Assembly (NCBI GenBank): GCA_028821395.1
Contig: JAPPGP010000196.1
Coordinates: 1 to 37,948 of the forward strand
Origin: Defluviicoccus sp.
GTDB lineage: Bacteria; Pseudomonadota; Alphaproteobacteria; MPNO01
Direction: 5' to 3'
DNA length: 37,948 bases
The translations under genes were made by a program, and so were the position numbers. Within the stretch, counting starts at the first letter, position 1. Every line of letters begins with the position of its first letter. The notes beneath the pieces are model-generated. The model was not told the DNA's origin and searched no databases. It saw only the letters and a list, made by a program, of their open reading frames with translations. Below, in pieces: positions 23,873-37,500 of the stretch.

Positions 23873-24003
23873 CCCGTCATGCCCGGACTTGATCCGGGCA
23901 TCCATGGGCGCCGCCAGCTCTCCCGACGGGCCGCCGTGCGGGCGGATAGGCTGCATGGATGGCCGGATCACCCCCGGACTCGATTCGGGGGCCGGCCATG
24001 ACG
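23873..24003. repeat. Long palindromic intergenic repeat, copy 4, with nested hairpin
   Basis: It runs from CCCGTCATGCCCGGACTTGA to GGGGGCCGGCCATGACG. The right hairpin is interrupted by a nested CCCCCGGACTCGATTCGGGGG, as in copy 1. Its left arm GCCCGGACTTGATCCGGGC shows what an uninterrupted hairpin looks like. Confidence 0.88.
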
Positions 24004-25047: not shown

Positions 25048-25084
25048 CCGCCCCGGATCAAGTCCGGGGCTCCGCGCCCGGCGG
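25048..25084. repeat. Inserted mini-hairpin with 4-bp CGCT flanking duplication
   Basis: A 37-bp segment centred on CCCCGGATCAAGTCCGGGG lies between two CGCT copies (25044-25047 and 25085-25088). The corresponding place after repeat copy 6 (35740-35743) has a single CGCT and no hairpin. This looks like a small insertion that duplicated its target. Confidence 0.65.
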
Positions 25085-25123
25085 CGCTGCGGTCGAAATG
25101 ACGAACGGCGGCGCCCGGGCCGG

Positions 25124-25420
25124 CTACTCCGCCGGCGCGCCCGCCTCGTCGCGGCGGACGATATGGCCCTCCAGGAAATCCATCTTGCCTTCGAGACGGC
25201 TCAGGCGGTCGCGGACCTCCTTCATCTCCACTTCCAGGCGGTCGCGGACCTCCTTGATCTCCGCTTCCAGCCGCTCGCGGACTTCCTTGATCTCCGCTTC
25301 CAGCCGGTCCATACGCCCATCGAGCCGGTCCATGCGCGCGCCGAGCGTGCGCTGGCCTTGCAGCATCACACCGGTCAACGCTACGCCGACTGCCAGGATC
25401 GCGATCAGTTCCGGGGTCAC
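25124..25420 (-). CDS. Small membrane-anchored coiled-coil protein, tandem copy A
   Basis: This 98-residue protein of unknown function has one N-terminal membrane segment (MTPELIAILAVGVALTGVML) followed by a charged coiled coil. The coil contains three 11-residue units of the type RLEAEIKEVRE, encoded by three 33-bp repeats at 25205-25303, then RLSRLEGKMDFLEGHIVRRD and an AGAPAE tail. The GTG start has GGAG eight bases upstream. Copy B (25644-25874) has one unit and is 22 residues shorter, exactly two units. The gene lies downstream of a duplicated fragment of the metallo-hydrolase gene. It could be a membrane scaffold or inhibitor-like protein, but nothing decides this. Confidence 0.8.
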   Translation of the reverse strand: MTPELIAILAVGVALTGVMLQGQRTLGARMDRLDGRMDRLEAEIKEVRERLEAEIKEVRDRLEVEMKEVRDRLSRLEGKMDFLEGHIVRRDEAGAPAE

Positions 25421-25507
25421 TCAGTATGCTCCGCGACGGCGTGGGGCACCCGCGCGGAAGACTCTGCCGCACCCGCGGCCTACCATCAAGCGAATACCTG
25501 CCCCGTC

Positions 25508-25606
25508 CTACCCGTCACGGGCGAAGTCGCAGGCACCGCCCCTGCCCGCACGAATCCGACGGGGGGGCGCGGGAAGTGCGCGGTCACGGTCGGGGTGCCG
25601 GTGTCG
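25508..25606 (-). pseudogene. Duplicated C-terminal fragment of the metallo-beta-lactamase-fold gene
   Basis: In reverse this reads DTGTPTVTAHFPRPPVGFVR, then a drifted end and a TAG stop. The intact gene ends DTDTLVMTAHFPAPPVGFAR with its stop in the same relative place. Only about 32 codons are recognisable. The fragment sits upstream of coiled-coil copy A just as the true 3' end sits upstream of copy B, so it came along with the tandem duplication. Confidence 0.75.
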
Positions 25607-25643
25607 TCGCGGCGCCCGGGACGCGCCGCAGCGGCCGGGCCGG

Positions 25644-25874
25644 CTACTCTGCCGGCGCGCCCGCGTCGTCGCGGCGGACGATATGGCCCTCCAGGAAATC
25701 CATCTTGCCTTCGAGACGGCTCAGGCGGTCGCGAACCTCCTTCAACTCCGCTTCAAGCCGGTCCATGCGCCGGTCGAGGCGGTCCATGCGCGCGCCGAGC
25801 GTGTGCTGGCCTTGCAGCATCACGCCGGCCAGCGCTACGCCGACTGCCAGGATTGCGATCAACTCCGGGGTCAC
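25644..25874 (-). CDS. Small membrane-anchored coiled-coil protein, tandem copy B
   Basis: This 76-residue paralogue of copy A has the same membrane segment (MTPELIAILAVGVALAGVML), a shorter coil (RMDRLEAELKEVRDRLSRLE) and the same GKMDFLEGHIVRRD and AGAPAE ending. The GTG start corresponds to that of copy A. It begins 88 bp downstream of the metallo-hydrolase stop on the same strand. The intergenic DNA upstream matches that of copy A, including a run around GACTCTGCCGCACCCGCGGC, so both may carry the same promoter or leader. Confidence 0.8.
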   Translation of the reverse strand: MTPELIAILAVGVALAGVMLQGQHTLGARMDRLDRRMDRLEAELKEVRDRLSRLEGKMDFLEGHIVRRDDAGAPAE

Positions 25875-25962
25875 TCGATCTGCTCCGCAACGCCATGGGC
25901 ACGCCCGCGCGGACGACTCTGCCGCACCCGCGGCCTACCATCAAGCGAATATTCGTCCCGCC

Positions 25963-26844
25963 CTACCCGTCACAGGAGAAGTTGAAGATCTCGCCCCGCG
26001 CCCGCGCGAAGCCGACCGGGGGCGCGGGGAAGTGGGCGGTCATGACCAGCGTGTCCGTGTCCGCGTGGCGTTCGAGGAACGCCCTCCGGGTCGCCGCCGA
26101 CCGCGCCCGGTCGGAGCAGCCGACGGCGCTCCAGCCGGGCTCGCGGCATTGCAGCGGCGTGTGGCAGACATCGCCCGACAGCACCGCGCGGGCGCCCTGC
26201 GAGCGAAGCTCGATCGCGACGTGGCCCGGCGTGTGGCCGGGGGTGGGCGCGAAGCGGATCTCGTCGTCGAAGGCCCAGAAGTCGTCGACGATCTCGGCCT
26301 GCCCGGCCTCGACGACGGGGAGCACGCTGTCGTCGATGCAGCCGTCGGAGTACTTCTTGCCGCCTTTGTTGAGCGCGATCCAGTGATCGTACTCGGTGCG
26401 CGCGAAGACGTAGCGCGCGTTAGGGACGGTCGGCACCCAGCGTCCGTCGAGCAAGCGCGTGTTCCAGCCCACGTGGTCGGCATGGAGATGGGTGCACATC
26501 ACGAAGTCGACGTCTTCCGGCGCGAGCCCGGCGGCGGCGAGGTTGTCGAGGAAGCGGGTCGATGTGCGCCGCGCCCAGGGCGCGTGGAAGCGGCGCTCCT
26601 TGTCGTTGCCGACGCAGGCATCGACCAGGATCGCGTGGTGGCGGGTCGTCAGCAGGTAAGACTGCATCGCCATCACCAGCCGGTCCGATACGGGGTCGAG
26701 GAAGCGCGGCTCGAGCCAGGCGCGGTGAGGCGCGAGGCTCTGCTCGCTCGCGTCCGGCAGCAGGAAGAACACGTCAAAATCGGGCCCCTCCGATTCGACG
26801 ATCCGCCGCCAGCCGATCCCGCCCACCGTGCCGCCCAGCCGCAT
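25963..26844 (-). CDS. Metallo-beta-lactamase-fold hydrolase
   Basis: This 293-residue enzyme has the zinc-hydrolase motif H119-x-H121-x-D123-H124 (THLHADHVGW), the further ligands in PTPGHTPGHV and SGDVCHTP, and a C-terminal TAHFPAPP loop. This layout fits cytosolic lactonase or esterase relatives such as N-acyl-homoserine lactonase-like and methyl-parathion-hydrolase-like proteins. The substrate cannot be named. The ATG at 26844 has GGAGGAG before it. It diverges from the MetE-like gene across a 75-bp spacer that must hold both promoters. Confidence 0.92.
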   Translation of the reverse strand: MRLGGTVGGIGWRRIVESEGPDFDVFFLLPDASEQSLAPHRAWLEPRFLDPVSDRLVMAMQSYLLTTRHHAILVDACVGNDKERRFHAPWARRTSTRFLDNLAAAGLAPEDVDFVMCTHLHADHVGWNTRLLDGRWVPTVPNARYVFARTEYDHWIALNKGGKKYSDGCIDDSVLPVVEAGQAEIVDDFWAFDDEIRFAPTPGHTPGHVAIELRSQGARAVLSGDVCHTPLQCREPGWSAVGCSDRARSAATRRAFLERHADTDTLVMTAHFPAPPVGFARARGEIFNFSCDG

Positions 26845-26919
26845 GCTCTCCTCCGCCGCATTTGCCCGCCCTTGCGCCGGTGACTATAGCCTGAGAGCGC
26901 CGCCATCGGAGGCTTCCAT

Positions 26920-28038
26920 ATGACGACACCCCCCTTCCGCGCCGAGCATGTCGGGAGCTTCGTCCGCCCGGATGCGCTGCTGGAAGCCGCGAGGGCGCAT
27001 CGCGCGGGGAGGCTCGACGCGGCGGGCTTGCGCGCGGCCGAGGACGCGGCGATCCAGGGCATCGTCGCCTTCCAGGACGGGCTCGGAATGCCGGCGGTGA
27101 CCGACGGCGAGTTCCGCCGCCGCTCCTGGTCGGCGGGCGTGATCGACGCGCTCGACGGGTTCGCGCTGCGCCGCGAGGGGCTGCTCGACTTCCGCTCCGA
27201 ATGGGGGAGCGCGGGTATCGCCGCCTCGCCATACGCCGCGCGCCGGCTCGGGCGCGCGCGCCCCATCGTCGCCGGCGACTACCGCTTCCTCGCCGGGCTC
27301 GCGCCGAAGGGCCTGCCCAAGGTGACCATCGCCTCGCCGCCGGTGCTCCACTTCTTCCTCGGGCCGCGCAGCTTCGAGCCCGCCGCCTATGCCGACCGGG
27401 ACGCCTATTTCGCGGACCTGGTGCGGATCTACCGCGCCGAGCTCGCCGAGCTCGCCGCCGCCGGCTGCGGATACGTGCAGCTCGACGACACCGCGCTCGG
27501 CTGCATCTGCGACGCGGCGGCGCGGGAGGGCGTGCGCGCGCGCGGCGAGGACCCGGACGCACTCACCGATGCCTATGTCGCGCTGATCAACGCGGCGATC
27601 GCCGAGCGGCCGGCGGGGATGTTCGTCGGGCTTCACATGTGCCGCGGCAATTTCAAGGGCCGCTGGATGGCCGAAGGCGGCTACGAGGCGATCGCCAAGC
27701 GCGTCTTCGGCGGGCTCGACGTCGACCTGCTGCTGCTCGAGTACGACACACCGCGCGCCGGCGATTTCGCGCCGCTGCGCTTCCTGCCCGCCGGCAAGAC
27801 CGCCGCGCTCGGGCTGATCGGCACCAAGACGCCGGCGCTGGAGGACAGGGACGCGGTCAGGCGCCGCATCGACGAGGCGGCGGCGCACGCGCCGCTCGAC
27901 CGCCTCGCCGTCTCGCCGCAATGCGGCTTCTCGTCAGCCGGCGGCGGCGGCCAGCCGGTCGGCCCCGACGACACCAGGCGCAAGCTCGAGCTCGTCCTCC
28001 GGATCGCCGAGGAAGTCTGGGGCGGCCCCGCGACCTGA
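26920..28038 (+). CDS. Short cobalamin-independent methionine synthase-like methyltransferase (YxjG/MetE C-terminal type), copy 2
   Basis: This 372-residue protein is a paralogue of 14464-15576. The same landmarks are present: FRAEHVGSFVRPDALL, MPAVTDGEFRRRSW, YVQLDDTALGC, HMCRGNFKGRWMAEGGYE with the His-x-Cys zinc ligands, LLLEYDTPRAGDFAPL and SPQCGFSS with the third Cys. Only the MetE catalytic barrel is present. GGAGG lies at 26908-26912 before the ATG. The methyl donor is unknown for this group. A 47-bp palindrome followed by a T run lies 50 bp after the stop and may terminate it. Confidence 0.9.
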   Translation: MTTPPFRAEHVGSFVRPDALLEAARAHRAGRLDAAGLRAAEDAAIQGIVAFQDGLGMPAVTDGEFRRRSWSAGVIDALDGFALRREGLLDFRSEWGSAGIAASPYAARRLGRARPIVAGDYRFLAGLAPKGLPKVTIASPPVLHFFLGPRSFEPAAYADRDAYFADLVRIYRAELAELAAAGCGYVQLDDTALGCICDAAAREGVRARGEDPDALTDAYVALINAAIAERPAGMFVGLHMCRGNFKGRWMAEGGYEAIAKRVFGGLDVDLLLLEYDTPRAGDFAPLRFLPAGKTAALGLIGTKTPALEDRDAVRRRIDEAAAHAPLDRLAVSPQCGFSSAGGGGQPVGPDDTRRKLELVLRIAEEVWGGPAT

Positions 28039-28087
28039 ATCCGTATCTCTCTCCCGACGAAAAAAGAGACCCCTTACCCCTTCCCCG

Positions 28088-28134
28088 CCCGTCCCCACGG
28101 TGATATTGATTATCAATAACACCGTGGGGACGGG
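28088..28134. promoter_or_regulatory. 47-bp palindrome with central Fur-box-like sequence, possible terminator
   Basis: Outer arms CCCGTCCCCACGGTG and CACCGTGGGGACGGG are perfectly complementary. The centre, GATATTGATTATCAATAAC (28102-28120), matches the 19-bp Fur consensus GATAATGATAATCATTATC at 15 positions. The whole is symmetric around one T, with one mismatched pair. ATTTTT follows directly, as in an intrinsic terminator for the upstream MetE-like gene. The FbpC-type ATPase starts 43 bp further on, so iron repression is plausible. Confidence 0.7.
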
Positions 28135-28176
28135 ATTTTTCGGCGTCGCTGCGGTTGGGTCGGCGGGTATGGCGCG

Positions 28177-29241
28177 GTGCTGAAACTCGATGGTCTGAGC
28201 GTCAGCTTCGGGACGAAACGGGCGGTGCGCGACCTCTCGCTGGAGATCGCGGAGGGCGAGCTGGTCTGCCTGCTCGGCCCGTCGGGCTGCGGCAAGACCA
28301 CGACGCTGCGCGCCATCGCCGGGCTGGAACGGCCGGCCGCCGGCCGGGTCGGCATCGCCGGGCGGGTGCTGTCGGTCGCCGCGAGGGTGGTGCCGCCGCC
28401 CGAGCGCGGCATCGGCTTCCTGTTCCAGGACGTGGCGCTGTTCCCGCATCTGACGGTGGCCCAGAACATCGCCTACGGCATGTGCCGGCGGCAGCGCGCG
28501 ACCGACACCGGCAGGGTCGAGGCGCTGCTGGACCGGGTGCGCATGCGCCATCTGGCGGACAGCTACCCGCACATGCTGTCGGGCGGCGAGCAGCAGCGGG
28601 CCGCCCTGGTCCGCGCGCTGGCGCCGCGGCCCCGGGTGGTGCTGCTCGACGAGCCGTTCTCCAGCCTCGATGCCGCGCTCCGCGCCGGGCTCCGCGAGGA
28701 GACGGTGCGCATCCTCAAGGACGCCGGCGTCACCGTGCTGATGGTCACCCACGACCCCGAGGAGGCGCTGGTCTCGGCCGACCGGATCGTGCTGATGCGC
28801 GACGGCGAGATGGTCCAGACCGGCACCCCGGACGAGCTCTACGCCGCCCCGGTCGATGCCTTCACGGCCGCCTTCTTCGGCGCGGTCAACCGGGTCCCCG
28901 GCACGGTCGCGGGCGCCGAGATCCGGACCCGCCTCGGCGCGCTCGCCAATCCCGGCTTCGGCGACGGCGAGCCGGTCGAGGTGCTGATCCGCCCGGACGG
29001 GCTGCGTCTCGCGCCGGGCGGCGGCCGTGCCTCGGCCGAGCTCCATGTCTGCAGCGTCCACTTCGCCGGCGCCTCCAGCGTGGTCCGGCTCAGCGAGCGC
29101 CACGGCGACCCGGGCCACGACCACTTCCACGCCCGCCTGCCCGGCCTGGTGCGCCACCGCGCCGGCGAGACGGTGCGGATCGCCATCGACCCCGGCCAGA
29201 GCTTCGTGTTCAGCGAGCCGCGCTCCCGATCCGCGCGGTAA
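28177..29241 (+). CDS. fbpC: ABC transporter ATP-binding protein, iron(III) FbpC type
   Basis: This 354-residue ATPase should energise an importer. Motifs: Walker A GPSGCGKTT (34-42), Q-loop FQDVALFPH, signature LSGGEQQR (134-141), Walker B VVLLDEP with D158/E159 and switch H192 (VTHD), then a C-terminal TOBE-like regulatory domain. The FbpC assignment rests on overall resemblance, the Fur-like box upstream and an FbpB-type permease in the same window. The GTG start at 28177 fits because the nearby ATG at 28169 runs into a stop at once. No permease or binding protein gene is adjacent. Its last 32 bp overlap the convergent ridA gene. Spermidine- or sulfate-type ATPases are alternatives. Confidence 0.85.
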   Translation: MLKLDGLSVSFGTKRAVRDLSLEIAEGELVCLLGPSGCGKTTTLRAIAGLERPAAGRVGIAGRVLSVAARVVPPPERGIGFLFQDVALFPHLTVAQNIAYGMCRRQRATDTGRVEALLDRVRMRHLADSYPHMLSGGEQQRAALVRALAPRPRVVLLDEPFSSLDAALRAGLREETVRILKDAGVTVLMVTHDPEEALVSADRIVLMRDGEMVQTGTPDELYAAPVDAFTAAFFGAVNRVPGTVAGAEIRTRLGALANPGFGDGEPVEVLIRPDGLRLAPGGGRASAELHVCSVHFAGASSVVRLSERHGDPGHDHFHARLPGLVRHRAGETVRIAIDPGQSFVFSEPRSRSAR

Positions 29242-29602
29242 CCTCGATCTCGACCTTCATCTCGGGCAGCGCGAGCGCCGCGATCACCGTCGTGTTGGCG
29301 GGCAGGATGCCGGCGAAGGCCTCGCCGACCGCCTCGCACACCGCCATGAGGTCCGCCCGATCGGCGATATAGACCACCACGCGCAGCACGTCGGCGAGCC
29401 CGGCCCCGGCCTCGCCCAGCGCGGCCTCGACATGGCCCAGCGCCAATCTCGCCTGCGCGGCGGCGTCGGGCGGGAAGGCGCCGGTCTCGCGGTCCATGCC
29501 CGTGGTCCCCGAGACATAGACCATGTCGCCGTCGACCACGGCGCGGGAGAAGCTCGCGAGCGCCTCGAAGGGCGTGAAGCTGGAGATCCGCCGCCTGGTC
29601 AT
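29210..29602 (-). CDS. RidA/YjgF family protein (enamine/imine deaminase type)
   Basis: This 130-residue protein has RidA landmarks: AVVDGDMVYVSGTTGMD, AAAQARLALGHVEAAL, VLRVVVYIADRADLMAVCEA and the C-terminal ALALPEMKVEIEVTARI. RidA enzymes release ammonia from reactive enamines, and some relatives act in catabolic pathways. It lies 10 bp downstream of the flavin monooxygenase and is probably co-transcribed with it. Its 3' end overlaps that of the fbpC-like gene on the other strand by 32 bp. Confidence 0.92.
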   Translation of the reverse strand: MTRRRISSFTPFEALASFSRAVVDGDMVYVSGTTGMDRETGAFPPDAAAQARLALGHVEAALGEAGAGLADVLRVVVYIADRADLMAVCEAVGEAFAGILPANTTVIAALALPEMKVEIEVTARIGSAAR

Positions 29603-29612
29603 CGTCTGCTCC

Positions 29613-30800
29613 TCACAGCTTGCCGTCCCGGGTCGGCAGGTCCAGCAGGATGCGGCCGTAATTCGCCCCCTGGGCGTCCCAGGCGAGCGCGATATGGGAG
29701 GCGAGCGTGTGCATGTCGCGCCAGTGGCGCTGCAAGGGCGAGTCCTCGGCATTGCCGGCCGCCCCGCCGAGCGCCATCAGCCGGTCGACCGCCCGCACCA
29801 GCAGCTTGCCGGCATAGGCGTCGTTGCGCCGCCAGCGATGGCGCTCCTCGAGGCTCGGCACCTCCCCCGCCTCGGCCCTGGCATGCACCTCTTCGCAGTC
29901 GCGCCGGAGCAGCGTCCAGGCGGCGTCGATCTCGGCCGCCGCCTCGCCGATGCGGAGCTGCGCCGTCGGCTCCCCGGCGAGCTTCGCGCCGCTCTGCATG
30001 CGCTGGCCGCCGAGCCTCTCCACCGCGAGCGCCAGCGCGCCCCGGGCGATGCCCACCGCGGGTGCGACGATCCCCTTGCCGAACAGCGCGAACAGCGGCA
30101 TCCGGTAGAGCGCGCCCGGGTTGACCGCGCTCCCCCGCGTGGGCCCGCCGCGGCAGGCCTCGGAGCGGATCGTCCAGTCCTCGGCGATGAACAGGTCGCG
30201 GCAGACCATCGAGCGCGAGCCGGTGCCGCGCAGCCCGGTGGTATACCAGTCGTTGATCAGCTCGACGTCGCCGACGGCTGCGAGGCCGTAGCGGTGCTCC
30301 AGCCCGTCGCGATCCAGCCGCGGCGTCATCATGTTGAAATGGTTCCAGCGGCAGAAATCCACGCCGCTCGCCAGCGTCCAGGTACCGTTCAGCAGGTAGC
30401 CGCCGTCGACCGGATCGATGCGCGAATCGGCGGTGGGGGTCGAGCCCGAGATCAGCGCGTCGGGGTCCCCGCCCCAGACCGCGTCCTGCGCCCCGGCGTC
30501 GAACATGCCGTGCATCCAGCTATGGCTGGCGACCACCGAATGCACCCAGGCGGTCGAGCCGCAGGCGGTGCCGAGCTCGGCGGCGAGATCGATCTGCAGC
30601 GCGTAGTCCGACTCGTAGCCGCCATAGCGCTCGGGGAGGTAGATGCGGTAGAGCCCGGCCTCCATCAACTCGGCCTGGGTCTCCTCAGGCAGCCGCCTGA
30701 TCCGGTCCGCCACCGCCGCCCGCGAGGCGATCCCCGGCAGCAGCGCCCGCGCCCGGCCGATCAGCTCCTCGCGCGCCACCGCGTTGGCGCCGCCGGTCAT
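29613..30800 (-). CDS. Acyl-CoA dehydrogenase-fold flavin monooxygenase (group D, HsaA/HpaB-like)
   Basis: This 395-residue protein has the acyl-CoA dehydrogenase fold as seen in two-component oxygenases. Landmarks include LPEETQAELMEAGLYRIYLP, GSTAWVHSVVASHSWMHGMF, GGYLLNGTWTLASGVDFCRW, TGLRGTGSRSMVC and the C-terminal ALGGAAGNAEDSPLQRHWRD. This group hydroxylates phenols or other aromatics, or desulfurises, using FMNH2 from a partner reductase that is not seen here. The usual catalytic Glu of true acyl-CoA dehydrogenases is not evident. The start is only 56 bp from the IS left end, so its original promoter region may have been replaced. Confidence 0.88.
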   Translation of the reverse strand: MTGGANAVAREELIGRARALLPGIASRAAVADRIRRLPEETQAELMEAGLYRIYLPERYGGYESDYALQIDLAAELGTACGSTAWVHSVVASHSWMHGMFDAGAQDAVWGGDPDALISGSTPTADSRIDPVDGGYLLNGTWTLASGVDFCRWNHFNMMTPRLDRDGLEHRYGLAAVGDVELINDWYTTGLRGTGSRSMVCRDLFIAEDWTIRSEACRGGPTRGSAVNPGALYRMPLFALFGKGIVAPAVGIARGALALAVERLGGQRMQSGAKLAGEPTAQLRIGEAAAEIDAAWTLLRRDCEEVHARAEAGEVPSLEERHRWRRNDAYAGKLLVRAVDRLMALGGAAGNAEDSPLQRHWRDMHTLASHIALAWDAQGANYGRILLDLPTRDGKL

Positions 30801-30932
30801 CGTTGCCGCGTTCCCGGTGTTCGGATCGGAGGCCTCCCGCTGCGGCCGCCATCTTAGAGCTTGTTCCTAAAGTCGCGGGTGGCCTCAAGCCATGGTACCT
30901 GTTCGGGTGTTGAGACCGATATGGAGGGTACC

Positions 30933-31794
30933 GTGGCTTGGACTGAGGCCACCCAAGCGAAGTATAGCCGGGCGCATGATCACCGACAAAACGATGTGAG
31001 CGACGCGGAGTGGGCTCTGATTGCGCCGCTGATCCCGCAGCAGGGGCGGATGGGTCGGCCGCGCACGACGGATCTGCGCCGAGTGTTCGACGCGATCCAG
31101 TACATGCTTGCCTCGGGCTGCCAGTGGCGTCTGATACCGCCTTGTTATCCGCCCTTTTCGACGGTTCAGAACTACTTCTATGCGTGGTCGCGCGGCGGCG
31201 TTCTGGAGCGCATGCTCGATGCGTTGCGGGAGCGAGCGCGGCGTCTGTCGGGCCGCTCGGTTCGACCCACGGTCGCGGTGATCGACAGCCAGAGCGTGAA
31301 GACGACGGAAAGCGGCGGCCCTTCGGGCTACGATGCGGCGAAGAAGATCAAGAGCCTGCCCCGGACCCCGATCCGGGGGCCGCAAGCGTCATCTGACGGT
31401 GGACAGCGAGGGCTCGCCGATCGTCCTTGCGGTGCACCGCGCCGACGTTCAGGACCGGGACGCGGCTGCGGATCTGATCGTGGAGCTGCTGCGCAAGGCG
31501 CCGGAGGTCTCGAAGCTGTTTGCCGACGGGGGCTACGGCGGACCCAAGCTGCGTGCTGCCCTGGCCCGGCGGGGTTTGCCGGAGCTCGTCGAGATCGTCG
31601 AAAAGCCCAAGCAGATCAAGGCCTTCACCGTTCTCCGCCGGCGCTGGGTGGTGGAGCGGGCGTTTGCCTGGATGGGTCGCTGCCGACGTTTGGCAAAGGA
31701 CTTCGAACGGAACGAGGCAAGTTCCCTTGCCTGGGCCAGGCTGGCCGCATGCCGCTTTCTGATGCGCAGGGTCGCGCGCGCGATAAACCCCTGA
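30933..31794 (+). pseudogene. IS5-family DDE transposase, frameshifted by a 25-bp hairpin insertion
   Basis: The N-terminal part reads MAWTEATQAKYSRAHD (GTG start), then DVSDAEWALIAPLIP, GCQWRLIP and VAVIDSQSVKTTE containing the first catalytic Asp, up to GYDAAKKIK. In intact relatives KKIK is followed at once by GRKRH. Here GRKRHLTVDSEG resumes in another frame after 25 extra bases at 31353-31377. The second part has LFADGGYGG (second Asp) and VVERAFAWMGRCRRLAKDFE (Glu). All catalytic residues are present, but the insertion breaks the frame, so transposase is probably inactive unless frameshifting rescues it. Confidence 0.85.
31353..31377. repeat. 25-bp insertion carrying the CCCCGG...CCGGGG mini-hairpin
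   Basis: The extra bases in the transposase contain CCCCGGACCCCGATCCGGGG (31359-31378), the same hairpin found nested in repeat copies 1, 4 and 6. An imperfect 4-bp duplication, AGCC/GGCC, flanks it (31353-31356 and 31378-31381). Removing 25 bp restores the standard KKIKGRKRH junction. Confidence 0.75.
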
Positions 31795-31829
31795 TAAATA
31801 ATACAAAAACTATAAGAATGACTTATGAT

Positions 31830-31982
31830 TCAAACTCTAAGGAAGCCGGTGACATCGGCGGGGAAGGGCCCCAGCGTTTCGTCATAGGCGACCGGGTTCC
31901 GGGTCTCATATCCGCCTGAGCCGGTCAGCCCGGCTTCGATGGCGGTTTCAAACGCCCGTTCGGTGGGTGCGGCCACGGTCAC
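31830..31982 (-). pseudogene. Truncated type I restriction enzyme HsdR, N-terminal fragment cut by the IS
   Basis: The reading frame starts GTG at 31982 and encodes about 48 residues resembling the HsdR N-terminus: ERAFETAIEAGLTGSGGYET, then NPVAYDETLGPFPADVTGFL. It runs into the IS inverted repeat, which supplies three codons or so and the TGA at 31830-31832. HsdR is normally about 1000 residues with nuclease and helicase domains, all missing. The GTG overlaps the stop of the DUF4411 gene (GTGA), so this was the third gene of that operon. The match is by family pattern over a short length. Confidence 0.7.
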
Positions 31983-32503
31983 GGCTCTGGCGAAAAACGG
32001 TATTGGACACCGAGCGCATGCGGCATGGCGAAGGTGTCCTCGAAATCGACGGAGAAGGCGTTGCAGATATCGGGGAGCTTGATCTGGTTGCGCGACTCCG
32101 GCCGCGGCTGCTCGTTGGTGACGACGGTCTTTCCGGTTGCCCGGCCATGCGCGACCAGCCAGCCATCCGCAGCGCTGGCGAACTTGGCCTTGGCCTCGTC
32201 GTGATATCGCGTGTGGCGCGTGACCCAGAGCATGACCTCGGTAAACGCGGCGACAACGTCATCGCCGTCGCTGCCGAGAAAGAAACTTGCGGGAACCGAC
32301 TGGCCAACCCACCGCACCAGGTCATCGTCGTCGCGGCCGAGAAGCAGCTCCTGTCTGACCCGGTCGATGCTGTGGATGTTGCCGAGGGAATGGCCGTGCA
32401 GGACGCTGTCCCAAAACCCGGGACAAATCGGAAACGCATAGTACCGATTCTTCGCGGTGATCAGCACGTCCGAGTCGATGAGATAGCCGGAAACCGAGCT
32501 CAC
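31979..32503 (-). CDS. DUF4411 family PIN-like protein
   Basis: This 174-residue protein has a PIN-like start with paired acids (YLIDSDVLITAKNRYYAFPI, D10 and D12), then ICPGFWDSV, RVRQELLLG, WLVAHG and TVVTNEQ with KLPDICNAF, the DUF4411 pattern. PIN domains cut RNA, and DUF4411 proteins are regularly encoded after an ImmA/IrrE-type gene, where they behave like a toxin-antitoxin or defence module. The GTG start overlaps the upstream stop (GTGA at 32500-32503) and the stop overlaps the hsdR fragment start, giving a fully coupled three-gene unit. Confidence 0.88.
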   Translation of the reverse strand: MSSVSGYLIDSDVLITAKNRYYAFPICPGFWDSVLHGHSLGNIHSIDRVRQELLLGRDDDDLVRWVGQSVPASFFLGSDGDDVVAAFTEVMLWVTRHTRYHDEAKAKFASAADGWLVAHGRATGKTVVTNEQPRPESRNQIKLPDICNAFSVDFEDTFAMPHALGVQYRFSPEP

Positions 32504-33657
32504 GGCAGCGCGATTCCGAGCTTGCGGGCATAGCTCTGGAAGGTGCCGCCGTTCAGTCCGGTCAGGTCATAGGCCTCCTTGAAGCCGATGCGCCCCTCTT
32601 TGGCCGCCAGGATGACGTGAGAGGCAAACAGCCTGCCCACCCGGGCATTTTGATTGTTGTAGAAATCGCCCCCGCCCGATGCCGTCGGCTCTTGCCGGCG
32701 TTCGCGCTGGGTGTAGTCGTGGTAGAAGCCGAAGAACGCGTCGCGATCAACCAGGCCGAGATCCAACGCCCGGCGCCCGACCGCCACCGGGCTGACCTTG
32801 AAGCGCCGGGCCAGTTTCTCGAAAGGCGCATCGTCATCGGCAACCGCGCGCCAGGCGGACCGAATCCCGGTGGCGGGCACGAGAAACTCCGCCGCCGCCC
32901 GGTCGCAAAATCGTTCGACTTCGCCCCCGTCGGGTTGCAATCCCCGGAAACCGGACAGGCCTTCGCCCGCATCGCCCAGCCACAGATGGGCCAACTCATG
33001 GGCGAGGGTGAACATTTGAGCGGACTTTGCGTCGGCCCCGTTGACGAAGATCAGCGGGGCATGGGGATCGCTCAGGGCAAAGCCGCGGAACTCGCCCTCG
33101 TCCAGCTTGCGCCGGGTGTTGTTGCCGACGATGCCGTTGACCACCGCCATGACGCCGAGCGCCTCCACGGCGTTGCGCAATTCGCCCACGGCCGCCGTCC
33201 ATGTCGGCACGCGCCGCGCCCAGCCTTCATCCAGCCCCACCGCCCGCCGCATTTCGCGCCCCGTGGCCTCCGGGTCGTCCGAGAGTGTGGCGGCTCCGAC
33301 AAGGCTCACCGGCTCCGCCTCTGCTTCCATCCGCTCTTCCCGCAGCCAGTTTTGCCGTCGCCGCATGAGGTGGATGGTGTCCATCAGCTCCGGGCTGATT
33401 CCCTGGGGCCGTCGACTCTCGACGGTGCGGAAGTCCGCGAACGGCAAGCCCATCTCCGGCGGTTCCGGCAGGAAAAGAAATCCGAACGGCACCCGCGTCG
33501 CCCTGGCAAAGTTCTCCAGCTGTCTCACGGTGGGACGGGCGGATTCGGCCTCCCACTCCGCAAGCTTCGGAAACCGGCCTTGCAGATCGGCGAAACCGAG
33601 CCCGGCGCGTTCCCGCGCCCAGCGAAGCACCGCCGGGCTGACCCTGATCCGGTTCAT
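32500..33657 (-). CDS. XRE-family regulator with ImmA/IrrE metallopeptidase domain
   Basis: This 385-residue protein joins an N-terminal helix-turn-helix (residues 1-60, WARERAGLGFADLQGRFPKL and ESARPTVRQLENFA) to an ImmA/IrrE zinc peptidase with H220-E-L-A-H224 (LAHELAHLWLG) and a downstream ERFCDRAAAEFLVP providing the third ligand. Such proteins cleave or bind repressors in mobile elements and pair with DUF4411 as regulator or antitoxin. A 6-bp palindrome 12 bp upstream is a likely autoregulatory operator. No strong ribosome site precedes the ATG at 33657, so a leaderless transcript is possible. Confidence 0.9.
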   Translation of the reverse strand: MNRIRVSPAVLRWARERAGLGFADLQGRFPKLAEWEAESARPTVRQLENFARATRVPFGFLFLPEPPEMGLPFADFRTVESRRPQGISPELMDTIHLMRRRQNWLREERMEAEAEPVSLVGAATLSDDPEATGREMRRAVGLDEGWARRVPTWTAAVGELRNAVEALGVMAVVNGIVGNNTRRKLDEGEFRGFALSDPHAPLIFVNGADAKSAQMFTLAHELAHLWLGDAGEGLSGFRGLQPDGGEVERFCDRAAAEFLVPATGIRSAWRAVADDDAPFEKLARRFKVSPVAVGRRALDLGLVDRDAFFGFYHDYTQRERRQEPTASGGGDFYNNQNARVGRLFASHVILAAKEGRIGFKEAYDLTGLNGGTFQSYARKLGIALP

Positions 33658-33668
33658 TTCGGGATGTT

Positions 33669-33684
33669 ACCCGTCGAAACGGGT
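33669..33684. promoter_or_regulatory. Palindrome upstream of the XRE/ImmA gene, probable operator
   Basis: ACCCGT-CGAA-ACGGGT is a perfect 6-bp inverted repeat ending 12 bp from the ATG. XRE regulators typically bind such sites in their own promoters. The remaining spacer to the permease gene (33685-33858) shows no gene. Confidence 0.5.
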
Positions 33685-33858
33685 GGAACCATACCGGCAT
33701 TTGCAGCGAGCGCATCGTGCGGGGCACGTGCCGGAGGCCTCGATTCGGCCCTTCGGCCCGGCTCGGGAAGAGGGGGTTTCCCGGGCATGCCAACCCTCCG
33801 TCATCCCGACTAGCCCGCCGGGGGCGGGCGTATCGAAGGACGCCTCGCCCCCCGCATT

Positions 33859-35508
33859 TCACCGCCGCTGCGAGGCGTTCATCCAGATCACCGGGCCGAG
33901 CCCGGCTGCGACGATGGCGAGGGCGGCAAGCGCCGAGTGCTCCAGCAGCTCGTCTGTGGCGAACTGGTAGACGTAGGTCGCCAGGGTCTCGAAATCGAAC
34001 GGGCGGAGCAGCAGGGTCATCGGCAGCTCCTTCATCACGTCGACGAAGACCAGCAGCCCGCCGGCGAGGATCGACTTGCGCAAGAGCGGCGGCGCCAGCG
34101 TCACCAGGCTCCGCGAGAAGCCGCGCCCGAGCACGTAGCTCGCGTTCATGATGTTGGGCGGGAGCCGCTTCACCCCGGACACGATGGCGCCGTAGCCGAT
34201 CGCCTGGAAGCGCACCACGTAGCCCGCCACCAGCAGCGCGACGCCGCCGATTAAGAGCCCGCCGAACCCGGCGCCGAGGACGCCCTCGACGAGGGCCTCG
34301 GCCGCCGAATCGAGCGCGCCGGCGAACACCACCACGCCGATGGCGAGCACGGTGCCGGGGAACGCATAGCCCATCGCCGAGATCGCGGTCAGCGCGCCGA
34401 GCGCCGGGTGGCGCTTGTAGGAGACCACCATCACGGTGACCAGCGCGACCGCCATGACGATCGACGCCGCCGCGAAGGCGACCGAGAGCGAATTGACGGC
34501 GGTGGCGATGAGCGCGCCGTAATCGGTGGACGACAGCCCGGCGGCGACGAACCAAAGCAGCACGCCGACCGGCACCGCGAAGCCGAGCGTCAGCGGCGCC
34601 AGGCAGACCAGGATGCAGAGCGCCGCCCTGGCGCCGCCGACCCGCACCGGGCGCAGCCCCTCGCGCGGTGTCGACGAATCGAAGAAACGCTGCTGCCCGC
34701 GCGCGCGCTGCTCGATGTAGAGCAGGCCGAGAATGAACACGAAGGCGACGCCCGCGATCTGCGCCGCGGCGGTCAGGTTGTTCATGCCGAGCCAGACGTT
34801 GAAGATGCCGAGCGTCAGCGTCTCGACCGCGAAATACTCGACCGTGCCGAAATCCGACACCACCTCCATCAGCACCAGCGCCAGCCCGGCGACGATCGCC
34901 GGGCGCGCCAGCGGGATGCCGACCGAGAACGCGACATTGCGGTCGTGCAGCAGCGCGACCTCGTAGTAGGAGGCCGGCGTGAGGCGGAACGCGGTGCGCG
35001 CCATCAGATAGACATAGGGGTAGAGCACCGAGCCCATCACCAGCACGGCGCCGCCGAGCGAGCGGATCTCGGGGAACCAGTAGTCGCGCGCCGACGACCA
35101 GCCGAAGATCTCGCGCAGCAGCCCCTGCACCGGGCCCGCGTATTCCAGCAGGTCGGTATAGGCGTAGGCGATGATATAGGCCGGCACTGTGGCGGGCAGC
35201 AGCAGCGTCCAGTCGAGCAGCCGCGAGAGCGGGAACTCGTAGCGCGTGACCAGCCACGCCGTGCTCAGCCCGAAGGCGAGGCTGACCAGCCCGACACCCG
35301 CCATCAGCGCCACCGTGTTCGCGACGTAGCGCGGAAAGACGGTCTCCATCAGATGCAGCCAGAGCCCGCCCGAATCCCCGGTCATCGCATAGAGCAGGGC
35401 CGCGAACGGCCCGATCAGGACGAGGCAGAGCACGAGCGTCGCCGCCGACCAGCCCGACACGGGGTCGGCCGGCGGTCCGCGGCGAAGGGTGGCAAGCGCG
35501 CTCAGCAT
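33859..35508 (-). CDS. fbpB: ABC transporter permease, iron(III) FbpB/ThiP type
   Basis: This 549-residue inner-membrane protein has two homologous halves, each with about six membrane spans, a fusion typical of FbpB and ThiP. EAA-like loops that contact the ATPase appear twice: YYEVALLHDRNVAFSVGIPL in the first half and IMNASYVLGRGFSRSLVTLA in the second. LLLPATVPAYIIAYAYTDLL and SAMGYAFPGTVLAIGV are characteristic of the iron permease group. It stands alone: the fbpC-like ATPase is 4.6 kb away on the other strand and no binding protein gene is present, so partners must be supplied in trans. Confidence 0.9.
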   Translation of the reverse strand: MLSALATLRRGPPADPVSGWSAATLVLCLVLIGPFAALLYAMTGDSGGLWLHLMETVFPRYVANTVALMAGVGLVSLAFGLSTAWLVTRYEFPLSRLLDWTLLLPATVPAYIIAYAYTDLLEYAGPVQGLLREIFGWSSARDYWFPEIRSLGGAVLVMGSVLYPYVYLMARTAFRLTPASYYEVALLHDRNVAFSVGIPLARPAIVAGLALVLMEVVSDFGTVEYFAVETLTLGIFNVWLGMNNLTAAAQIAGVAFVFILGLLYIEQRARGQQRFFDSSTPREGLRPVRVGGARAALCILVCLAPLTLGFAVPVGVLLWFVAAGLSSTDYGALIATAVNSLSVAFAAASIVMAVALVTVMVVSYKRHPALGALTAISAMGYAFPGTVLAIGVVVFAGALDSAAEALVEGVLGAGFGGLLIGGVALLVAGYVVRFQAIGYGAIVSGVKRLPPNIMNASYVLGRGFSRSLVTLAPPLLRKSILAGGLLVFVDVMKELPMTLLLRPFDFETLATYVYQFATDELLEHSALAALAIVAAGLGPVIWMNASQRR

Positions 35509-35798
35509 GGCCGGAGTTTATGGAGCGAAAGGGAGCGGCGCGGCAAACGGTAAATGGGGCGGGGGGCGTCCTTCGGTACCCGCCCTGCATTCCCCTCAAT
35601 CGTCATGCCCGGACTTGTTCCGGGCATCTCGATCGGGCGTTTGCCTTGCGGGCCGCATGGATGGCCGGAACAAGCCCCGGACTGTGATCCGGGGCAAGTC
35701 CGGCCATGACGGGGTGGGGCAGCAGGCGCGAGATATCTCCGCTGCGATCGAATTGACGGGCCGCGACCGCGCACCGTTCGGGTCCGCGCCACGCCCCC
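35509..35798. other. Gene-free stretch containing repeat copy 6
   Basis: Between the permease start and the end of the monooxygenase gene lies repeat copy 6 (35601-35711). The 90 bp before it hold the permease promoter region with no clear consensus elements. No coding frame is supported. Confidence 0.6.
35601..35711. repeat. Long palindromic intergenic repeat, copy 6, with cleanly inserted mini-hairpin
   Basis: The left arm GCCCGGACTTGTTCCGGGC is intact. The right arm should read GGCCGGAACAAGTCCGGCC but is split by CCCCGGACTGTGATCCGGGG (35675-35694), flanked by CAAG at 35671-35674 and again at 35695-35698. This is the clearest insertion with a 4-bp target duplication in the window. Confidence 0.88.
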
Positions 35799-37100
35799 CT
35801 ACGGCCAGGGCGGGCGGGTGAGGCCGAGGTTCTCGCGGAGAGTCGTGCCCTCGTACGCGGTGCGGTAGAGGCCGCGGCTCTGGAGCTCGGGGATTACCAG
35901 GTCGACGAAGTCCTCCAGGCTGGAGGGGAACACCGGCGGCATGATGTTGAAGCCGTCGCAGGCGCGCCCCTCGACCCACTGCTCCATCATGTCGGCGATG
36001 CGCTCCGGCGTGCCGACGATCTCGTAATGGCCGCGCGCGCCGGCGATGCGGCGGTAGAGGTCGCGGATGGTGAGCTTCTCGCGGCGCCCGATCTCGGCGA
36101 AGAGCTGCGCCCTTGTCGACACCACTTTGTTGGGCGGGAGCTCGGGCAGCGGGCCGTCGACGTCGTAGCCGGTGAGGTCGAAATCGATGCGCCGCGAGAG
36201 GAGCTGCATCCCGGCCAGCGGGTCGATCAGCGCCTGCAACGCCTCGTACTTGTCCTCGGCCTCGCCCTGCGTCGGCGCTGCGCAGACCGCGAGCCCGGGC
36301 AGAATCTTGAGCGAATCCGGGTCGCGGCCGCAGGCCTCCATGCGGCCCTTCACGTCGGCGTAGAATTCACGCGCCCCCTCGATGGTCTGCTGCGCGCCAA
36401 AAATCACCTCGGCGGTCTCGGCGGCGAGCTGGCGCCCGTCGTCGGAGGCGCCGGCCTGCACCATCACCGGCTCGCCCTGCGGCGAGGGCGGCACGTTGAT
36501 CGGCCCGCGCACCCGGAAATGCTCGCCCTCGTGCTCCAGCACGTTCAGCCTGGCCCCGTCGAAATAGAGGCCCGAGTCCTTGTCGCGGACGAACACCCCC
36601 TCGCCCCAGGAGTTCCACAACCCGCGCACCACGTGGGCGAACTCGCGGGCGCGGCGGTAGCGCTCGCTCTTCTCAAGATGTTGGTCGAGGCCGAAGCTCG
36701 CGGCCTCCAGCTTGTTGGCCGAGGTGATCAGGTTCCACCCCGCCCGCCCGCCGCTCGCGACATCGAGCGAGGCGAAGCGCCGGGCGAGCGAGAACGGCTG
36801 GTCGTAGGTGGTGGTCGAGGTGCAGACCAGCCCGATGCGGCTGGTGTGCTGGGCGAGCGAGCACATGACGGTGAACGGCTCGATCCAGGCGCCGAAGGAG
36901 TCGCGGGTCATCGATTCGAGGTCGCCGCGCCAGAACGAGACCGAATCGGCCATGAAGAAGAGGTCGAACAGGCCGCGCTCGGCGAGCTTCGCGAGCTCGA
37001 CGATGTGGCCGATATTGGCCCCCGAATCGGCGACCCCGTCGGGATGCCGCCAGGCCGCCATGTGATGGCCGCAGGGCCAGTAGAACATGCCGAGCTTCAT
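35799..37100 (-). CDS. LLM-class flavin-dependent monooxygenase, NtaA/SnaA/DszA type
   Basis: This 433-residue TIM-barrel enzyme belongs to the nitrilotriacetate monooxygenase component A branch of the luciferase-like family, which oxidises C-N or C-S bonds with FMNH2. Landmarks: FDLFFMADSVSFWRGDLESM, FTVMCSLAQHTSRIGLVCTS, DVASGGRAGWNLITSANKLE, INVPPSPQGEPVMVQAGASD and DGFNIMPPVFPSSLEDFVDL. ATG 37100 gives the usual MKLGMFYWPCG start; an in-frame start at 37130 is less likely. No flavin reductase partner is nearby. It is more distant from the two LLM paralogues at 11296-13243. Confidence 0.93.
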   Translation of the reverse strand: MKLGMFYWPCGHHMAAWRHPDGVADSGANIGHIVELAKLAERGLFDLFFMADSVSFWRGDLESMTRDSFGAWIEPFTVMCSLAQHTSRIGLVCTSTTTYDQPFSLARRFASLDVASGGRAGWNLITSANKLEAASFGLDQHLEKSERYRRAREFAHVVRGLWNSWGEGVFVRDKDSGLYFDGARLNVLEHEGEHFRVRGPINVPPSPQGEPVMVQAGASDDGRQLAAETAEVIFGAQQTIEGAREFYADVKGRMEACGRDPDSLKILPGLAVCAAPTQGEAEDKYEALQALIDPLAGMQLLSRRIDFDLTGYDVDGPLPELPPNKVVSTRAQLFAEIGRREKLTIRDLYRRIAGARGHYEIVGTPERIADMMEQWVEGRACDGFNIMPPVFPSSLEDFVDLVIPELQSRGLYRTAYEGTTLRENLGLTRPPWP

Positions 37101-37500
37101 GGGGGCCCACGCTAACCCGATCCCGCCCAAGCGGGAAAGCCCGCCGCCCCGTCATTTCACTCGTCATGCCCGGACTTGTTCCGGGCACCCATGGGCGGTG
37201 CGTGGAGAGCCGGGCCGGGTCCGCCCCCAGCGCCATCATTCCAGCCGGGTCGCCGTGCGCGCGGAGATGCCGCATGGGTGGCCGGATCAAGTCCGGCCAT
37301 GACGGGGTGGTAATGGCGGAGGAGGAGCAGGAAGAGCCGGGTGCGGCACGCGTCGAAGGCTAAACCCGAGAGCAGTGGCTCGAGTCCGGGCATGACGGGG
37401 CGCCGGCGGGGTGGGGCGGTGAGCGCCGCGCAACGACCGGCCCGGTTGGTCGGCGCGCCGCTACGGCCTATCCTGCCGCGGCAACCCCAAGGAGGCGACC
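37101..37500. other. Gene-free stretch with repeat copy 7 and a half copy
   Basis: This 400-bp gap between two divergent genes contains repeat copy 7 (37162-37304) and an isolated arm (CGAGTCCGGGCATGACGGGG, 37381-37400). No coding frame with family resemblance was found. The promoter of the UbiD-family gene should lie after 37400; no clear consensus was identified. Confidence 0.6.
37162..37304. repeat. Long palindromic intergenic repeat, copy 7
   Basis: It runs from CGTCATGCCCGGACTTGTTC to AGTCCGGCCATGACG, with a longer middle than other copies. The middle contains GTGCGTGGAGAGCCGGGCCG, similar to sequence just before copy 2. Both arms are intact hairpins without nested insertions. Confidence 0.85.

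Follow-up and report, generated by a model that had tools for sequence, protein, structure and literature searches.

What are the very short GC-rich hairpins that interrupt repeats and genes in the Defluviicoccus sp. contig JAPPGP010000196.1 (contig C85 in this analysis), and how did they get there? The stretch analyzed, 37,948 nucleotides long and called the window below, belongs to a genome of 266 contigs and 4.94 Mb. The protein encoded at 35799-37130 places it nearest, among named relatives, to four Defluviicoccus metagenome bins, with 88-93% identity (records very close to the window were possibly excluded). An earlier note on this DNA had proposed that tiny hairpins insert at such places with a fixed target duplication of 4 bp. 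Based on sequence comparison, the hairpins in question probably represent a family of non-autonomous mobile units of 24 bp, each composed of a 20-bp palindromic hairpin and a 3′ CARG tag and moved in trans.

Hairpins of the form CCCCGGA-N3..8-TCCGGGG are abundant in this genome (75, versus 1 for the reversed control) and fall into two classes, one of 19 bp with a 5-nt loop (e.g., TCAAG) and one of 20 bp with a 6-nt loop. The 6-nt-loop class was found at 17 places, versus 1 for the control. The unit is defined as the 20-bp hairpin CCCCGGA-N6-TCCGGGG together with its own 3′ tag, CAGG or CAAG, for a total of 24 bp; this pattern was observed twice in the window and in none of 200 Markov shuffles. 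Its anatomy was examined in 87 distinct 20-bp hairpins, oriented by the tag where present, with one from genome G040 and part of the places in genome G003 included. The right-hand four bases were CAGG in 53 cases, CAAG in 10, CATG in 6, and TAGG in 4. A CAGG or CAAG tag thus lies beside 63/87 of these hairpins, versus 0/46 distinct sites of the 19-bp class, which also lacks matching flanks (0/46) and whose commonest outward flanks, TGAC (28/92) and TCCA (22/92), are those of ordinary repetitive extragenic palindromes (REPs). As single-stranded DNA, the unit is computed to fold into a stem of 7-8 bp that leaves the tag unpaired, and no Rfam family was matched at the gathering threshold across six sources. 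Units can also stand head to tail, 24 bp apart, as at G000:C164:35861 and 35885 and at G001:C66:9227 and 9251. Relative to the tag, the loop was seen either way round (TCGCAG+CAGG and CTGCGA+CAGG) at 35675-35694 and related loci, as if the hairpin can flip. CATG-tagged units occur in many copies of one G004 repeat (L201-L208, L213, L214, L217, and L218) and form a separate branch.

The evidence for mobility comes from filled and empty versions of the same site. In a strict comparison, for which each flank had to align over 50 bp or more, 18 sites had a partner, and the net difference was exactly 24 bp at 14 of them; among looser, non-independent pairs, 138 differed by a net 24 bp, and the next commonest value was 23 (15 pairs). 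The cleanest filled/empty case is that of phage terminase large-subunit genes (PF05876, E 1.6e-101) carried by viral contigs. Among the best 80 of 587 homologues, 3 have the unit and 77 lack it; over the unit, the alignment gap is exactly 24 in 71 of these 77 and shifted in the other 6. The flanks are continuous, with neither duplication nor deletion, and the joint is ambiguous by 1 nt because the unit and the target both start with C. Likewise, sequence shared at the joint did not exceed 1 nt in exact 24-bp gains in unrelated genes, phage genes included. Clean empty versions, one of the two tests that the earlier note had set for its proposal, exist, and insertion of the tiny hairpins is supported.

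Reciprocal filled/empty pairs with 90-92% identity were found between L044 (G004:C218) and L245 (G389:C28), which come from two families and lie in an F-type conjugation gene cluster that is about 91% identical between them, with units at different places. The cluster common to G004 and G389 suggests a vehicle between families. Insertion into REP loops is illustrated by L017 compared with L007 (25 bp on each side) and by L027 compared with the window (82 and 45 bp), and insertion into a terminator-like loop by L150 compared with L164, a site for which the strict table had chosen another partner with a net difference of 13 bp. Further separate cases are a G004 repeat, L035, L159/L161, L236, L238, and L251. 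Versions without the hairpin were also seen for a composite repeat. The DusA region, compared within the family of G040, did not add a case, since the unit is present in both members of the genus and this region is variable in the remaining genomes. Site L013 was rejected as a clean 24-bp case, its partners being irregular (net 9 and 15). In viral contigs, 33 stretches match a narrower unit pattern. Viral tests other than the terminase were less clean: the four homologues of L403 lack 7, 8, 10, and 12 residues; those of L408 lack 9 residues in 65/79 cases, 8 in 10, and 5 or 7 in 4; and 5/6 homologues of L488 lack 8 residues, the sixth not covering the span. As far as sequence can tell, these comparisons demonstrate a precise 24-bp gain at many unrelated sites, tandems with a 24-bp period, and occurrence across several families as well as in phage and conjugation genes.

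Does insertion duplicate the target? Two context sets were used, namely 32 non-redundant tagged contexts from the genus (units behind another unit were removed) and 20 outgroup contexts. The tag recurs as the four bases to the left of the hairpin in 4/32 and 1/20 of these, respectively, so the tag is part of the unit itself and in general does not copy the target. With the terminase also free of duplication, the fixed 4-bp duplication of the earlier note did not hold up. Its suggestion that flank duplications be compared with chance gave a mixed answer. Identical 4-mers on both sides are indeed more frequent than expected (14/83 distinct 6-nt-loop sites, chance about 1.4%, versus 0/46 5-nt-loop sites), yet they are an exception among sites, comprising 5 nested REPs, 4 units that follow another unit, intact or decayed, 3 copies of a single repeated context, 1 self-complementary CCGG, and 1 other. 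Flank duplication occurs at some sites and is not the rule.

The target itself shows preferences at single bases. The tag is followed by C in 30/32 genus contexts (background 0.35), and a G stands two bases before the hairpin in 21/32 (p 0.0006), as well as in 20/26 distinct viral-contig contexts, for which the C was demanded by the search pattern. A general preference for hairpin loops was considered and rejected: siting in loops is over-represented, with 12/51 contexts at or below 0.05, and the mean rank is 0.48. Units were seen in the loops of similar terminator-like hairpins across genomes (L150 at G002:C6, L234 at G303:C11, and the viral-contig loci L302 and L306). Units are acquired as wholes on the 5′ side of a C that often lies within GNC, as a rule without 4-bp target duplication or deletion, and the targets include open genes as well as the loops of REPs, terminator-like loops, and further repeats.

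The relevant features of the window are as follows.

35675..35698, + strand: 24-bp unit in the loop of a REP palindrome (hairpin 35675-35694, tag CAAG 35695-35698); a unit-less REP copy is 24 bp shorter.
35661..35707, no strand given: REP palindrome split by the unit, with arms ATGGCCGGA (35661-35669) and TCCGGCCAT (35699-35707); the target loop contains CAAG.
31355..31378, - strand: antisense unit of 24 bp (tag CAGG) within an IS5-family transposase gene; net difference from two relatives, 25 bp.
30861..31794, + strand: two pieces, 30861-31352 and 31372-31794, of an interrupted IS5-family transposase gene (PF13340, E 4.9e-26; PF01609, E 4.9e-21; pieces searched separately).
25051..25069, no strand given: REP-type hairpin of 19 bp with a 5-nt loop; it does not count among the units, has no CARG beside it, and differs by 41 bp from the copy near 35746.
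23971..23991, no strand given: nested hairpin within a REP loop, a replacement and not an insertion; two mismatches to the unit pattern.

The hairpin at 35675-35694, CCCCGGACTGTGATCCGGGG, has CAAG on either side, as the earlier note had described, and it does lie inside a REP palindrome; the CAAG/CAAG picture arises because the target REP loop itself holds CAAG. The hairpin-less REP copy L007 is the 24-bp-shorter partner, with just 25 bp aligned per side. No orthologous empty site was found, the neighbors being split by other DNA in G002 and lying on separate contigs in the other three genus genomes. A 49-bp piece containing this unit recurs with 100% identity at C24:486-534, and the nested REP and unit may for that reason have spread as one piece. 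The second claimed insertion, into a transposase at 31353-31377, was also substantiated: the hairpin occupies 31359-31378 and is preceded by CCTG at 31355-31358, which is the tag CAGG on the opposite strand. Within the genus, no close copy of the interrupted insertion sequence was found that could serve as an empty site; a relative at C183 is 66-69% identical. A diverged IS5-family copy at L228 (G000:C183:89300-91000) carries another small palindrome, CCCTTCGACAAGCTCAGGATGAGGG, where relatives have three bases; genes of this type thus hold tiny inserts of two different kinds.

The third proposed case, at 25048-25084, was discarded as a unit, since its hairpin is of the 5-nt-loop REP class, lacks a CARG tag, and is 41 bp off when compared with the copy near 35746. 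Nested hairpins, also claimed, are present at 23971-23991, where the hairpin replaces part of the REP loop rather than inserting into it; it is possibly a decayed or different unit. Elsewhere in the window, a block of about 455 bp occurs in two tandem copies at 25100-25997, with 33-bp repeats inside, and the G and C runs at the contig start (1-130) are probably an assembly edge.

An in silico search showed that the unit is scattered among genomes. Within the genus, the 20-bp class is present 17 times in this genome and 16, 16, 23, and 23 times in four others, and it was detected in 12 of the 41 genomes searched, this one included. When the tag and the following C were required, the unit was found in 11 of 385 alphaproteobacterial genomes (again including this one), distributed over seven families, and the control gave 0. 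A hairpin of Indioceanicola from a plasmid collection was not counted because it is without the CARG tag. Among the papers listed in literature searches by hairpin strings or wording, none was recognizable as describing the 24-bp unit, most subscription journals being outside the coverage.

Inside genes, the unit survives as an eight-residue linker because of its 24-bp length and because the common unit has a stop codon in none of the six frames (the CTGTGA version has one). Ten protein pairs were aligned, and 7 show a single gap of exactly eight residues; of the other three, L189 has two gaps summing to 17, L150 is not clear-cut, and one pair has the unit in both members. One such peptide, PGSGSGAG, falls within the part of an F-type conjugation protein that matches TrbC; another, PGSLSGAS, is encoded in an open frame in which TraN is matched as well. 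Among 69 contexts, orientation was assigned to those with codon-phase G+C on both flanks in one frame. The unit was in the sense orientation in 14/14 cases at the loosest threshold and in 11/11 and 8/8 at stricter ones, with the coding flanks in differing frames in 18/69 contexts at the loosest; a second rule gave 12/12 sense. It is read in genes as PGSxSGAG or PDRGPGQA, never in the third phase. This one-orientation bias could reflect peptide selection or a strand-specific process. The antisense unit in the interrupted transposase, a single case, leans toward selection.

Several observations weigh against interpreting the unit as a mobile element. Its mobility rests on comparison, without live transposition seen, and no enzyme was found. 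Neither side of 15/87 hairpins carries CANG. The remaining strict pairs differ by a net 48 (2 x 24), 13, 9, and 6 bp, and both partners carry the unit in 6. Several of the 14 exact sites share a composite repeat or tandem array, so that there are fewer independent events than 14, and nested REP copies may have been propagated as a single piece. The 25-bp net difference at 31355-31378 from the two IS5-family relatives is one more than the unit, the G at position -2 falls short of significance in the outgroup set (10/20, p 0.14), the loop preference is not general, and the genus genomes are draft assemblies. This last point, together with the frequent location of units near contig ends, could indicate an assembly artefact or hairpins arising in place. 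Such an origin is hardly credible, as the same unit and joint occur in independent genomes and viral contigs, in frame, and hairpin-less homologues are present. That errors of replication or repair (template switching, slippage, or conversion between copies) copied the unit with no transposition at all is rather unlikely: it would suit the tandem arrays, the nested REP duplicated as one piece, and the composite repeat common to many filled sites, but not the exact 24-bp gain in unrelated genes, phage genes included, with at most 1 nt shared at the joint. Classical DDE-type transposition with a 4-bp target duplication draws on the excess of identical flanking 4-mers, and it is very improbable given that the tag is nearly constant, that the other flank so seldom equals it, and that the terminase empty sites contradict a duplication there.

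We return to the preferred interpretation, a unit moved in trans. The earlier note had reasoned that the hairpin is too small to encode anything and needs a factor acting in trans, and this was judged right. We propose that an enzyme acting in trans would recognize the hairpin, single-stranded or as a small circle, and join it to the target; the 1-nt ambiguity at the C may mark the joining point. This step could be performed by a single-strand DNA enzyme other than a resident REP-associated tyrosine transposase (RAYT), a view that we tentatively favor. Single-strand transposition of the IS200/IS605 type leaves no target duplication, and the lack of duplication at unit sites would also agree with a single REP moved by a RAYT of the Y1 HUH family; a tag next to a GC-rich hairpin looks REP-like, and Y1 proteins are present in G303 and G121. 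However, PF01797 was not found in 5/5 genus genomes or in 9/11 carriers, this one included (the search control was matched in 5/14 known genomes), the unit tag is not GTAG, and doublets are regarded as mobile and singlets as remnants in work on REP doublets forming hairpins, or REPINs (PMC3116915; this and the papers below are cited from excerpts of their text). We regard this explanation as quite unlikely, and the earlier note was right to set the hairpins apart from the REPIN/RAYT scheme. The RAYT of the same genome is not the moving enzyme in most carriers examined; one acting at a distance, or since lost, is a fairly doubtful candidate. An RNA route, in which a hairpin transcript enters new sites by reverse splicing or reverse transcription, would fit the single orientation in coding genes and the lack of flank duplication and has been proposed for mitochondrial hairpin elements (PMC4478555, PMC2800124). 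The unit in the interrupted transposase is antisense, however, and peptide selection accounts equally well for the bias; we consider the RNA route rather unlikely. A moving step of any other nature, outside single-strand DNA enzymes, RNA, RAYT, and replication or repair copying, seems improbable.

How does the unit compare with known systems? SDR5 elements, small dispersed repeats of cyanobacteria, were reportedly described by Elhai et al. in 2008, and to our knowledge no enzyme is known for them. They are described as a very small module with precise insertion at a defined target place, which is also true of the unit. SDR5 is said to insert precisely in HIP1 (PMC4390886); it differs in being cyanobacterial and in its octamer target, whereas the unit is alphaproteobacterial, carries the CARG tag, and inserts 5′ of a C. 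Closer taxonomically are the CGTC-tagged alphaproteobacterial REPs, short tagged palindromes, some of them within genes like the unit, which the ordinary REPs of the window resemble. According to the excerpted description (PMC3733652), they have stems of 8-9 bp ending in AT and are mostly head-to-head dimers, while the unit has no AT ends and occurs in single copies; its tag, CAGG or CAAG in 63/87, is neither GTAG nor CGTC. REPINs share with the unit short palindromes spread by a factor in trans, but they move as doublets (PMC3116915). In contrast, the unit is a single hairpin without an inverted REP pair (a single 24-bp gain at 14/18 strict sites and in the terminase), with no Y1 gene in the genus and one in 2/11 carriers only. 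Miniature inverted-repeat transposable elements (MITEs) have hairpin arms in common with it, but the flank equals the tag in 4/32 contexts and the terminase shows no duplication.

Rickettsia palindromic elements also insert in frame in unrelated genes (PMC10969869), as the unit does in the 7/10 protein pairs with an eight-residue gap; those elements, as excerpted, are about 150 bp long and add a longer peptide, compared with 24 bp and eight residues here. Mitochondrial GC clusters and hairpin elements are likewise tiny, mobile, non-coding palindromes, and the yeast GC42 and sponge elements are presented as having unknown enzymology (PMC4478555, PMC2800124). Allomyces hairpin elements are reported without flank duplications in the same excerpts. 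These differ from the unit in being organellar, and yeast GC42 has 42 nt and a putative AG duplication. The unit lacks tested features of REPINs, GTAG/CGTC REPs, and MITEs and is best regarded as a variant of the very small mobile palindromes, along with SDR5, REPs, and Rickettsia palindromic elements.

We see about an even chance that the whole picture applies. The unit would then be among the smallest transposable units in nature: a single 24-bp hairpin, 4-nt tag included, that an enzyme other than a resident RAYT moves in trans and joins at a single C, that spreads across families, phages, and conjugative elements, and that enters genes in one direction, as a Gly/Ser linker ready for use. 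With the ends of the unit, its tag, its target rule, and its empty sites in hand, one can proceed straight to the design of a trap experiment or an enzyme assay. For the proteins concerned, it provides exact eight-residue insertions. The finding also bears on how short palindromic repeats spread without a transposase, as with the CGTC repeats, which are stated in the excerpted text to have no dedicated enzyme (PMC3733652).

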